Source: Prevotella sp.
GTDB lineage: Bacteria > Bacteroidota > Bacteroidia > Bacteroidales > Bacteroidaceae
NCBI GenBank assembly: GCA_017410365.1
Contig: JAFQQY010000042.1
Span: 1 to 54,057, forward strand
Length of the DNA: 54,057 nt
Direction: 5' to 3'
Each line of letters opens with the position of its first letter. Position 1 is the first letter of the stretch. The notes below the pieces were generated by a model. The model was not told where the DNA came from, searched no databases, and was given only the letters and a program-made list of their open reading frames with translations. Both the position numbers and the translations under genes were made by a program. Below are positions 2,663 to 33,088 of this stretch, piece by piece.

Positions 2663-3865
2663 ATGAAACAGATTAAAGAAATGAACAAATTTGATTTTGA
2701 CAAACTGACAGACCGAAAGGGAACAGGTGCGATTAAGTATGATGGTCTAACAGAAATATTTGGCAAGTCAGACCTGCTGCCTCTATGGGTGGCGGATATG
2801 GATTTCGAAACACCTCCCTTCATTGTCGATGCTTTGAAGAAAAGAATGGAACATCCTATCTTTGGATATTCTACGATACCAGATGATTACTGGACAACCA
2901 TCTGCCAATGGATAAACGACCGCCATGGCTGGAATGTGGAACCTGATTGGGTTACCTACATACCAGGGGTTGTAAAGGGTATAGGCATGGCCATAAATGT
3001 TTTTGTGAAAGAAGACGAAAAGATAATTATCCAGCCTCCTGTATATCATCCTTTCAGCTTAGTGCCACTTGGAAACAATCGTGAGGTAGTGCACAATCCT
3101 CTTCGTCGTATTCAGGATGGGGCGTATGAGATGGATTTTGATAATCTGGAACAAGTGGCTGATGATAAGTGCCGCATGCTGATACTCTCTAATCCTCATA
3201 ACCCCGGCGGAATAGTTTGGGATAGGGAAACGCTCAAGCGATTGGCTGATTTCTGTTACAAAAGGAACATACTGGTTATTTCAGATGAGATACATTGCGA
3301 TATGGCGCTTTGGGGCAACAAGCATATTCCGTTTGCCTCCGTTTCGCCAGAGGCCGAGGCTTGCAGCATCACATTTTATGCACCTTCTAAGACGTTCAAC
3401 ATTGCGGGAATTGTCAGTTCTTACGCTGTTGTTCCCAATAATGAACTGCGAAAAACGTTTTACGATTGGTTGAGTGCAAACGAACAGAATTGGCCGAACA
3501 TGTTTGCTGTCATTGCTACACAGGCGGCTTTCCGCGAAGGTGAAGAATGGCGTCAGGAGATGCTTCGCTACATAGAGCGGAATATCCTCTTTGTTGAGGA
3601 ATTCTGCCGCATGCATATTCTGCAAATCCGCCCTATGCGTCCGCAAGCCAGCTTTCTTGTATGGCTGGATTGCACGGCTTTAGAACTTTCACAAAGCGAA
3701 CTTGTTTCTCTCTTTGTAGATAAAGCCGGGCTTGCTCTTAACGACGGTGCCATGTTTGGAAAAGAAGGCGAGGGATTCATGCGCCTAAATGTGGGATGCC
3801 CTCAAAGCATACTTCGTGAAGCAATGGAGCGTTTGGAGGAGGCGGTGAATCAATATGCTTTGTAA
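2663..3865 (+). CDS. MalY/PatB-family PLP aminotransferase (probable cystathionine beta-lyase)
   Basis: A 400-residue fold-type I PLP enzyme. The layout is that of MalY/PatB proteins: an N-terminal FDFDKLTDRKGTGAIKYDG, a substrate-cap LWVADMDFETPP near residue 41, the NPHNPGG loop at 177-183, the cofactor-binding Asp in ISDEIH (208), and the Schiff-base Lys243 in YAPSKTFNIAG. Family members cleave cystathionine or other cysteine S-conjugates to a thiol, pyruvate and ammonia. Some have regulatory side roles, but nothing here points to one. An alternative start at Met7 (2681) would match the usual family N-terminus better. It is monocistronic and convergent with the ATPase gene that follows. 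Confidence 0.87.
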   Translation: MKQIKEMNKFDFDKLTDRKGTGAIKYDGLTEIFGKSDLLPLWVADMDFETPPFIVDALKKRMEHPIFGYSTIPDDYWTTICQWINDRHGWNVEPDWVTYIPGVVKGIGMAINVFVKEDEKIIIQPPVYHPFSLVPLGNNREVVHNPLRRIQDGAYEMDFDNLEQVADDKCRMLILSNPHNPGGIVWDRETLKRLADFCYKRNILVISDEIHCDMALWGNKHIPFASVSPEAEACSITFYAPSKTFNIAGIVSSYAVVPNNELRKTFYDWLSANEQNWPNMFAVIATQAAFREGEEWRQEMLRYIERNILFVEEFCRMHILQIRPMRPQASFLVWLDCTALELSQSELVSLFVDKAGLALNDGAMFGKEGEGFMRLNVGCPQSILREAMERLEEAVNQYAL

Positions 3866-31708: not shown

Positions 31709-32464
31709 ATGGCTAAAAATATAAGTTTTACATTAAAATATTGGAAGCAGGATGGTCCTAAGGCTAAGGGACACTTCGACGAGCGCGAGATGAAGAATAT
31801 TCCGGACGATACATCGTTCCTCGAAATGCTCGACATCCTGAACGAAGAACTTATCAATGAAGGTAAGGAACCATTCGTGTTCGATCATGACTGCCGCGAG
31901 GGTATCTGCGGTATGTGCTCACTCTACATCAACGGTCATCCACACGGACCTGCAACAGGTGCTACAACCTGTCAGCTCTATATGCGCCGCTTCAACGATG
32001 GCGATGTAATCACCGTTGAACCATGGCGTTCAGCTGCATTCCCTGTAATCAAGGACTGTATGGTTGACCGCGGTGCATTCGACAAGATTATCCAGGCTGG
32101 TGGTTATACAACTGTTCGCACTGGTCAGGCTCAGGATGCTAACGCTATCCTCATTCCAAAGGAAGATGCTGACGAGGCTATGGACGCTGCAACATGTATC
32201 GGTTGCGGTTGCTGTGTAGCAGCTTGTAAGAACGGTTCTGCCATGCTCTTCGTTTCATCTAAGGTTAGCCAGCTGGCACTGCTCCCACAGGGCCGTCCAG
32301 AGGCTGCACGCCGTGCCAAGGCAATGATTGCCAAGATGGACGAACTGGGCTTCGGTAACTGTACCAATACCCGTGCATGCGAGGCAGAGTGTCCAAAGAA
32401 CGAGTCAATCGCTAACATCGCACGCCTGAACCGCGAGTTCTTGAAGGCTAAGTTGGCTGACTAA
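31709..32464 (+). CDS. frdB: Fumarate reductase / succinate dehydrogenase iron-sulfur subunit
   Basis: 251 residues, starting 5 bp after frdA. The [2Fe-2S] ligands are in [20 protein letters not shown] followed by TTC. The [4Fe-4S] motif is [14 protein letters not shown], and the third cluster ligands are in [17 protein letters not shown]. It passes electrons from the cytochrome b to the flavoprotein. With three complete cluster motifs the subunit appears functional. The alternative name is sdhB. Confidence 0.96.
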
Positions 32465-32520
32465 TAAAAACAACGAATTACTCGAATTAAACGAATTATT
32501 CGAAATATCCTCTCACGATT

Positions 32521-32557
32521 CCAACCTTGTAAGGGCTTCATGCCCTTACAAAGTTGG
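32521..32557. other. Long near-perfect hairpin after the frd operon
   Basis: A 16-bp stem with one mismatch (CCAAC-C-TTGTAAGGGC / GCCCTTACAA-A-GTTGG) and a 5-base loop. No T-run follows, so it is more likely an mRNA 3'-end stabiliser or a palindromic repeat than a simple terminator. The DNA between it and the frdB stop has the AATTCGTT-type repeat sequence. Confidence 0.6.
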
Positions 32558-32641
32558 ATGACTACATTAAATATTATATACTAACAGAATAGCGTTTCTG
32601 TTCGACACTTATTTTTAGATATTGAGCTTTTGCTCTTGTTC

Positions 32642-32794
32642 TTGGGACTCGAATACCGCCAAACATTCACATCCAAAGAAGAACAAGTTAACAAAGGTTC
32701 ACGCTCATGGGCGTGGACTGTTCGTTCTTGTCTTTGGATTGGTCACTTGGCGGTAACCGGAGTCTCGATAAGTTCGGATGGTTACGCCTTTTTT
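32642..32794 (+). ncRNA. Candidate structured RNA (long branched hairpin with overlapping terminator)
   Basis: Five nested helices can be drawn by eye. P1 is 32642-32650 with 32760-32768 (9 bp with wobbles). P2 is TACCGCCAA 32654-32662 with TTGGCGGTA 32747-32755. P3 is ATCCAAAGA 32671-32679 with TCTTTGGAT 32731-32739. P4 is AGAAC 32680-32684 with GTTCT 32724-32728. P5 is GTTCACGC 32697-32704 with GCGTGGAC 32711-32718, closed by a 6-base loop. Internal loops are 3/4 and 8/7 bases. The right side of P2 can instead pair downstream to form an intrinsic terminator ending at 32794. A free-standing RNA (6S-like in outline) and a cis-acting attenuator for the gene at 32813 both fit. I see only a weak promoter-like TATTTTTA at 32610-32617. 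Confidence 0.6.
32749..32794 (+). terminator. Intrinsic terminator that shares a strand with helix P2 of the structured RNA
   Basis: GGCGGTAACC (32749-32758) pairs with GGTTACGCC (32780-32788), leaving one bulged base, and TTTTTT follows at 32789-32794. Its left arm overlaps the right arm of P2, so the two helices exclude each other. Confidence 0.6.
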
Positions 32795-32812
32795 ATTAAT
32801 TGGATTTTTAAT

Positions 32813-33088
32813 ATGGCAGAAACAAGGTTTCATGATTGCCCGAAATGTGGGAAAGAAAATGTTGTAGGCTATCTAAAAGAAGATGGTGGAGCAAAAGTTG
32901 GCAAAGTGGTAAGTGCAGGTGGATTGGCACTTAGTGGTGCGTTAATAGGTGGTCCTTTAGGAGCATTAGCAGGTTTGGCTATTGGCAAATGGTATGGTGA
33001 TAAAGTAACACAACCTCATGGATGGACTGATTTTGTTTTTAAATGTCCAAGATGTAACCATGAATTTACAGAATCTTTTAAAATGTAA
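32813..33088 (+). CDS. Small protein: split zinc ribbon around a glycine zipper
   Basis: 91 residues from MAETRFHDCPKCGKEN. One CxxC knuckle is at the N-terminus (CPKC, residues 9-12) and the second near the C-terminus (CPRC in VFKCPRCNHEF). Between them lies a glycine-rich hydrophobic segment with small-residue spacing typical of glycine zippers (AGGLALSGALIGGPLGALAG). It looks as if a membrane-inserting hairpin has been placed inside a zinc ribbon. An in-frame extension upstream to 32630 would be the structured RNA and is rejected. It is followed after 5 bp by the 101-residue gene, so the two likely form an operon. Function is unknown. Confidence 0.7.
   Translation: MAETRFHDCPKCGKENVVGYLKEDGGAKVGKVVSAGGLALSGALIGGPLGALAGLAIGKWYGDKVTQPHGWTDFVFKCPRCNHEFTESFKM

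Follow-up and report, generated by a model that had tools for sequence, protein, structure and literature searches.

Attenuators of the trp type, found in amino-acid operons, consist of four leader segments that pair either as 1:2 together with 3:4 (the terminator) or as 2:3 (the antiterminator), with a U-tract before the gene. Transcriptional riboswitches and T-boxes also rely on a conserved fold of the 5' leader that competes with a terminator, and T-boxes, the Firmicutes comparison for reach, stand in front of many genes per genome. In the capsule loci of Bacteroides, leaders of the UpxY/RfaH type are subject to regulated premature termination within a long leader. For structured RNAs of the Bacteroidetes, Weinberg 2010 (PMC2864571) gives the motifs Bacteroidales-1, Bacteroides-1, Bacteroid-trp and Flavo-1, with Rfam accessions.

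Here we analyse an element within a 54,057-nt contig of Prevotella sp. (JAFQQY010000042.1, hereafter the window), which is one copy of a large, apparently undescribed family of Bacteroidota leader RNAs. From sequence comparison and predicted folds, we consider it likely that this leader acts in cis and controls the downstream gene by transcription attenuation, using a four-segment design. The plan is the same as in trp-type attenuators, but no leader peptide runs across segment 1, pairing 2:3 lies inside a conserved hairpin of 120 nt, and the genes that follow are diverse and mostly encode exported proteins instead of serving one pathway. As in riboswitches and T-box leaders, a conserved 5' leader fold is set against a terminator and occurs before many genes per genome, although the leader has no Rfam match to such families and is carried by Bacteroidota. 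With UpxY/RfaH-type leaders it has in common the phylum and the long leader, and would also share regulated premature termination. Like the motifs given in PMC2864571, it is a structured RNA of the same phylum recognized by comparative genomics, but it showed no match to them in the Rfam scans.

These scans, a check proposed in the earlier note on this DNA, found no family in the window at the gathering score, in agreement with that note's failure to recognize a known riboswitch core. The stretch 32460-32860, searched at E up to 10, gave chance-level matches (best 0.42, a microRNA family), and no match to the leader, nor membership of a described riboswitch family, appeared in scans of further loci, in two partly overlapping sets of 20 and 17. 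At one of the 20 loci scanned (L345, 1387-1455), the DUF805 RNA (RF03081, 79 bits) was found 45 nt behind the element; it is also a cis-regulatory motif, but a separate one of 68 nt. We found no description of the leader in Rfam 15 or in the literature searched by full text, title or abstract, a scope outside which lie supplements, preprints and most subscription papers. The available parts of PMC8040213, PMC6414381, PMC9723704, PMC7366714 and PMC2864571 do not describe it either; PMC8040213, as far as available, refers to thousands of candidate RNAs placed in its supplements, and an unannotated earlier listing there is possible.

Structure of the window element

The segment 32642-32794 of the + strand has a predicted folding energy of -58.8 kcal/mol, compared to -38.3 +/- 3.9 kcal/mol in 200 dinucleotide shuffles (z -5.26), none of which equalled it, and the minus strand folds more weakly (-50.2 kcal/mol, z -4.7). 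The earlier note had read a structured RNA here, made of five nested helices in one long bulged hairpin, and the predicted fold is indeed a single long bulged hairpin with helices P1-P5 (Table 1). Both of the perfect 9-bp pairings that it placed more than 50 nt apart are exact: TACCGCCAA/TTGGCGGTA, which joins 32654-32662 to 32747-32755 with 84 nt between, and ATCCAAAGA/TCTTTGGAT, which joins 32671-32679 to 32731-32739 with 51 nt between. A further perfect complementarity, between CTTGTTCTT (32635-32643) and AAGAACAAG (32679-32687), is part of a second switch helix, 1:2.

As had been noted, a hairpin ending in TTTTTT lies just before the gene with zinc-ribbon and glycine-zipper features: the tail GGATGGTTACGCC runs into the U-tract, and the ATG follows 18 nt past it. 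The zinc-ribbon matches of the 91-aa product are weak, under the Pfam cut-offs. The hairpin formed by P2-3' and the tail amounts to -15.1 kcal/mol by itself and uses the same 5' arm as P2, so that the two helices are mutually exclusive. It is absent from the output of a generic terminator scan, which covers loops of 3-8 nt only and reported the P5 hairpin instead.

Table 1. Features of the leader element and its neighbours (window coordinates).
Feature	Position	Strand	Basis or remark
Upstream gene, presumably frdB/sdhB-like	31709..32464	+	context; name presumed from its sequence
Conserved upstream module, ACAGAATAGCGTTTCTGTTCG... then ...TAGATA	32584..32621	+	common to other Prevotella-type copies (upstream of 74 copies; 14-copy comparison)
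Segment 1	32622..32646	+	pairs with segment 2, -22.7 kcal/mol; includes the CTTGTTCTT stretch
P1 5' strand	32642..32650	+	partner 32760-32768; P1 pairs vary on both sides
P2 5' strand TACCGCCAA	32654..32662	+	fold, exact pairing, covariation
Segment 2	32673..32701	+	most of P3-5', P4-5', internal loop, part of P5 5' strand
P5 5' strand GGTTCACGCT	32696..32705	+	fold, covariation
Segment 3 = P5 3' strand GGGCGTGGACT plus a few nt	32709..32723	+	partner P5-5' or tail (-15.9 kcal/mol)
P4/P3 3' strands	32727..32739	+	fold
Internal loop GGTCAC between P3 and P2	32741..32746	+	well conserved among Prevotella-type copies
P2 3' strand TTGGCGGTAACC	32747..32758	+	also possible terminator 5' arm in the Prevotella-type sub-family
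P1 3' strand	32760..32768	+	fold
Segment 4 = tail GGATGGTTACGCC	32776..32788	+	contains near copy of P5 5' strand
U-tract, end of conserved element	32789..32794	+	between-copy homology stops about here
Downstream gene, 91 aa, zinc-ribbon and glycine-zipper-like; putative controlled gene	32813..33088	+	ORF

Covariation among homologues, another check named in the earlier note, is strong. In alignment A4 (46 copies), 96.1% of the cells are paired, 31 of the 43 pairs show changes on both sides, and two-sided cells number 309, whereas shuffles give 86 +/- 8 and slid versions no more than 68. Because both A4 and A5 were fitted to the structure of the model, their pair counts lean towards it. A4 also contains 244 G-U cells and 19 A-C cells, numbers that would be reversed on the other strand, and this excess of about 13 to 1 indicates that the + strand acts as RNA. 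Helix P2 is almost strictly Watson-Crick, unlike the other helices, with G-U in 0 of 367 cells in A4 and 1 of 542 in A5. Few loop letters are conserved class-wide (68 rows).

Distribution of the family

A nucleotide search of 60 genomes gave matches in nine, all from one genus and including the genome of the window, where two further copies were found. Covariance model R1, built on 12 copies, matches 115 of 200 genomes of the genus at E <= 0.001; its strong matches in 75 sources number 75 and score 108-173 bits (L050 and L074 being the same place), with 59 matches of 29-47 bits on the opposite strand. Weak matches elsewhere in the class share the layout, and model R2 was built next, on 46 copies. 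At E <= 1e-6, R2 recovers 89/396 genomes of the class, 79/198 of the order and 21/198 of the phylum, figures that, as with R1, include the genomes used to build the model, which match by construction. Six of the 21 phylum genomes lie outside the class with weak scores (48-61 bits), and the copies of three of them (L354, L355, L357) have the hairpin, a tail able to pair with P5-3' and the U-tract.

Because the large searches scored 7-14 candidates per genome, copy numbers are lower bounds, and match counts in them can include both strands of one place. Genomes G051 and G773 each carry the element in at least 13 distinct places. Of the seven copies in the genome of the window, three share the type of the window element; the other four belong to a second type and are followed 47-96 nt later by a gene, which in three cases looks by eye like a BspA-type repeat protein. 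In named genomes, at least 118 stretches were found by pattern, and all 118 listed are copies by model, 70 with R1 (83-172 bits) and the other 48 with R2 (48/48, 115-163 bits). The carriers among the matches listed are Prevotella-group species, Paraprevotella, Leyella, Palleniella, Xylanibacter and Segatella and, as labels of metagenome-assembled genomes (MAGs), Alistipes, Bacteroides, Phocaeicola, Muribaculaceae and others. Cultured strains with model-confirmed copies include Leyella stercorea DSM 18206, Paraprevotella clara YIT 11840 and Segatella copri iAQ1173.

Two strong copies (L117, L138) come from a MAG labelled Bacillota (NALB_7861_17), a label that is probably wrong. Locus L328 carries two leader copies on the same strand about 1.2 kb apart (1501-1655 and 2862-3012), and L017 (1424-1600) keeps the 5' module and the tail without the central hairpin, before a gene with a signal-peptide-like start. 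Phage and plasmid collections gave no match to the element. Viral contigs gave 33 pattern matches, of which only L262 is a copy by R2, the other 32 scoring nothing and serving as a specificity control for this model. L262 (10591-10758, 142 bits) is a clear copy in a contig of a viral collection; the leader may perhaps be carried by mobile elements, or the contig may not be viral.

Competing helices

Segment 1 lies upstream of P1, and its pairing with segment 2 (the P4-5'/P5-5' region) extends over some 20 nt. The strength of each pairing with its own partner was compared to the mean of swapped partners in 168 non-redundant copies, 114 of the Prevotella type and 54 distal. The own partner was stronger for 1:2 in 89/114 and 52/54 copies (p 5e-11 and 2e-10), for 2:3 in 85/114 and 46/54 (p 1e-8 and 5e-8), and for 3:4 in 79/114 and 46/54 (p 2e-5 and 3e-9), p values that, despite the removal of redundant copies, are still too small because the copies are related. 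The control pairings 1:3 and 2:4 showed no such advantage in the same 168 copies, and base composition alone is therefore not the cause; in distal copies 1:3 does beat shuffled sequence (p 0.005), but not swapped partners. Mutually exclusive helices with copy-specific complementarity, as in an attenuator, are thus found across the 168 copies. The earlier note had seen one such exclusion, P2 against P2-3':tail, which holds, but it missed the partner helix 1:2 that completes the switch.

The tail nearly repeats the P5 5' strand. In the 97 of 199 copies that are in alignments A4 and A5, it pairs with P5-3' at <= -6 kcal/mol in every case (97/97), and with P2-3' at that level in 39/39 copies of the window's type and 24/58 distal copies. 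The earlier proposal of P2-3' as the 5' arm of the terminator consequently may hold for the Prevotella type and was rejected as a general one, the family-wide arm being P5-3'. Within the Prevotella type, the own and swapped energies of tail:P2-3' are equal (-10.57 kcal/mol both). Deviant P5 strands are matched by deviant tails in L270/L305/L310 (related copies) and L308, and in L355, from another class, the P5-3' strand GGGGTGTTCC has the matching tail GGAACACCC. The tail of distal copies also pairs copy-specifically with sequence past the U-tract (own -10.5, swapped -8.8 kcal/mol), and the RNA beyond the supposed stop may matter in them.

A terminal U-run of at least five is present in 109/149 copies of set D and 45/49 distal copies, versus 20/431 and 12/143 control stretches. 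A GC-rich helix with a U-tract right behind it, as an attenuator needs, is therefore usual though not universal, since 40 of the 149 set D copies have no U-run of five. Set D, which includes eight distal copies (L265-L272), is the first group in the U-run, box, mini-ORF and gene-start counts, and the swap, fold-energy, tail-pairing and ORF-overlap tests used the corrected split into Prevotella-type and distal copies. The loop of 3:4 is about 50 nt or more (32724-32775 in the window), long for an intrinsic terminator.

When partial transcripts ending after segment 2 are folded, 1:2 is in the best fold in 114/114 and 53/54 copies; at full length it is in 5/114 and 3/54. With the enforced pairs picked by a duplex program, the full hairpin beats the state with 1:2 and 3:4 in 110/114 and 51/54 copies, by a median of 8.7 and 13.0 kcal/mol, and in the window copy the full-length best fold has -66.6 kcal/mol and the alternative state -55.6. 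Termination hence requires a kinetic argument, and the switch is probably kinetic, the finished hairpin being the more stable fold.

Covariation, strand-specific G-U pairs, a U-tract with a start codon nearby and copy-specific competing helices all agree with the attenuator logic of the earlier note, and we propose the following course of events. Segment 1 would pair with segment 2 first, as in the computed best fold of the partial transcript. For read-through, segment 2 would then be drawn into P1-P5, which would act as antiterminator: with segment 3 and P2-3' locked up in it, a terminator could not form and the gene would be read. For a stop, 1:2 would persist and segment 3 would pair with the tail before the U-tract, where transcription would end about 20 nt before the start codon; in the sub-family of the window, P2-3' could replace segment 3 as partner of the tail. 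The rate of the exchange from 1:2 would be set by a signal, most likely a protein or a small molecule acting on the conserved internal loops of P1-P5.

Genes behind the leader

Downstream sequence of 300 nt or more is available for 196 copies, and in 190 of these an ATG-initiated ORF of 50 aa or longer begins within 150 nt, at a median distance of 21 nt; at control positions upstream, such an ORF begins within 150 nt in 285/529 cases. The element thus lies shortly before a gene start, the position of an attenuator. Judged by a simple hydropathy criterion rather than by a trained predictor, signal-peptide-like starts occur in 120/144 of the products in set D and 28/46 of the remaining distal ones, versus 178/551 control ORFs from the same loci. 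Pfam was run on 135 of the 190 products: exclusion of incomplete products, those longer than 620 aa and repeat products left 146, of which L154, L113, L272, L301, L304, L338, L344, L345, L313, L316 and L320 were left out of the scan. Among the 135 products, 53 Pfam families are represented; 10 products match BspA-type repeats, eight match the type IX sorting domain, and at least 54 match no family.

Six loci chosen for bearing the element share with the window frdB and about 235 nt of leader, and similarity ends at window 32792-32798, at the U-tract; the gene directly behind the leader has no nucleotide match to the window in any of them, and one, L140, matches the window again 3 kb further on. 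Similarly, two copies from the genome of the window match at 89% identity across 418 columns, up to a point within the U-tract, and the genes behind them show no similarity. With homology stopping at the U-tract and different genes behind, the leader behaves as a reused unit. Cassette insertion at frdB was considered and not retained: behind frdB the loci compared are not alike (6 of 20 relatives and three further loci, missed by the frdB end pattern, were outside the comparison), and no empty site is shown.

A gene for a Cro/C1-like helix-turn-helix (HTH) protein of 66-78 aa recurs behind the leader (L302, L303, L323, L327, L343, L346, L188, L110). A search with it gave 34 matches in 16/119 genomes, and of the 30 loci fetched, 13, from seven families, are immediately preceded by the leader in the same orientation (seven of these leaders score under 50 bits, three of them under 35). 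The small HTH protein may be a core target or a regulator of the leader. A rival reading makes the leader an antiterminator controlled by an RNA-binding or RNA-polymerase-associated protein, such as this HTH protein or a NusG paralogue of the UpxY type. One regulator would account for the control of unrelated genes, and the HTH genes are recurrent cargo, but at E <= 0.01 the leader is missing from 17 of the 30 HTH loci, including that of the HTH relative in the genome of the window, whose match carries an internal stop, and we hold such a protein to be possible but rather doubtful.

Unlikely, in our estimation, is a strict ligand-binding riboswitch in which P1-P5 is the aptamer and a metabolite stabilizes it and antiterminates. 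Conserved internal loops within a strongly covarying scaffold, the 5' leader position and the two-state architecture would all suit it; the scarcity of loop letters conserved class-wide and the functional diversity of the genes behind, which do not belong to one pathway, speak against it.

Sequences upstream of the leader

A promoter-like box, TAnnTTTG, is enriched at -20..-120 in distal copies (27/49) and at -120..-220 in set D (47/144); elsewhere it occurs in about 4-12 copies, except for 31/142 at -220..-320. The two-codon ORF ATG-NNN-stop is likewise enriched (64/143 and 21/48, versus 21-36 and 5-12 at nine other spacings). It lies about 30-260 nt before the element (e.g., L062, L015, L276, L329), often in a TTGCC[T/A]ATGAAATAA-like context, and may keep ribosomes out of the leader. 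The window copy has no TAnnTTTG box in 32201-32660 and no such mini-ORF in 32361-32640; transcription may reach it from the frd operon. In copies that lie behind frdB or another gene, a different 5' part replaces the promoter box and mini-ORF (window 32460-32580; L054, L059, L069, L075, L079, L087, L098, L140), several of them with a CTCTCATCTCCACCGC...GGTGG hairpin. Between frdB and the element, the window also contains a nearly perfect 17-bp hairpin, TCCAACCTTGTAAGGGC, at 32520-32558, with no U-tract behind it, repeats of AACGAATTA/TCGAATTA at 32472-32507, and a stretch, 32460-32501, with 32 matches elsewhere in the same genome.

The box in part of the copies and a 3' end resembling a terminator would fit an independent small RNA that ends at a terminator of its own and just happens to adjoin genes, but gene starts cluster a few nt past the U-tract in nearly all copies, competing helices would serve no purpose in such an RNA, and we regard it as improbable. 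The 6S-like variant raised in the earlier note is not supported, there being no match to the 6S model or another Rfam family, seven copies in the genome of the window rather than a few (and the 13 or more places in each of G051 and G773), and a gene that begins a few nt past the element.

Attenuation of the trp type proper, with ribosomes on a leader peptide overlapping segment 1, is very improbable. The enriched mini-ORF could speak for it, but it ends before segment 1 and is missing from the window copy, and ORFs running into segment 1 are depleted in both groups, 9/113 against 41 +/- 4 when shuffled (one copy with short upstream sequence being omitted) and 3/54 against 14 +/- 4, which makes a ribosome on a leader peptide unlikely as the sensor. 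An equally remote idea is a DNA-level element such as a folded, attC-like recombination site spreading gene cassettes, which dispersed copies, unrelated genes behind and the sharp end of homology at the U-tract would suit, but the integron attC comparison fails on the G-U to A-C ratio, which is not strand-neutral and implies selection on one strand as RNA, and the U-tract and the short distance to start codons are left unexplained.

Significance for the Bacteroidota

We return to the attenuating leader as the preferred reading. The same RNA stands before unrelated genes, most of them for exported proteins, and probably acts as a portable unit that controls accessory surface proteins. A bolder extension, which we put forward tentatively and hold to be somewhat less than even, is a phylum-wide portable sensor-switch, in which one RNA before unrelated surface-protein and regulator genes would let a single signal toggle a species-specific exterior; it would be a new riboswitch or antiterminator class with a T-box-like reach. 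What appears new, judging by the sequences, is an attenuator by construction of unusual size and with an unusual range of genes, and it would be a very widespread attenuator family that works without a translated leader peptide. Gut and rumen Bacteroidota have many accessory surface proteins, the control of which is mostly unknown. With a conserved leader in front of many of them in the same genome, the sequence by itself would delineate a regulon and provide a lead towards its signal, and the leader would offer a ready-made switch for engineering gut commensals.
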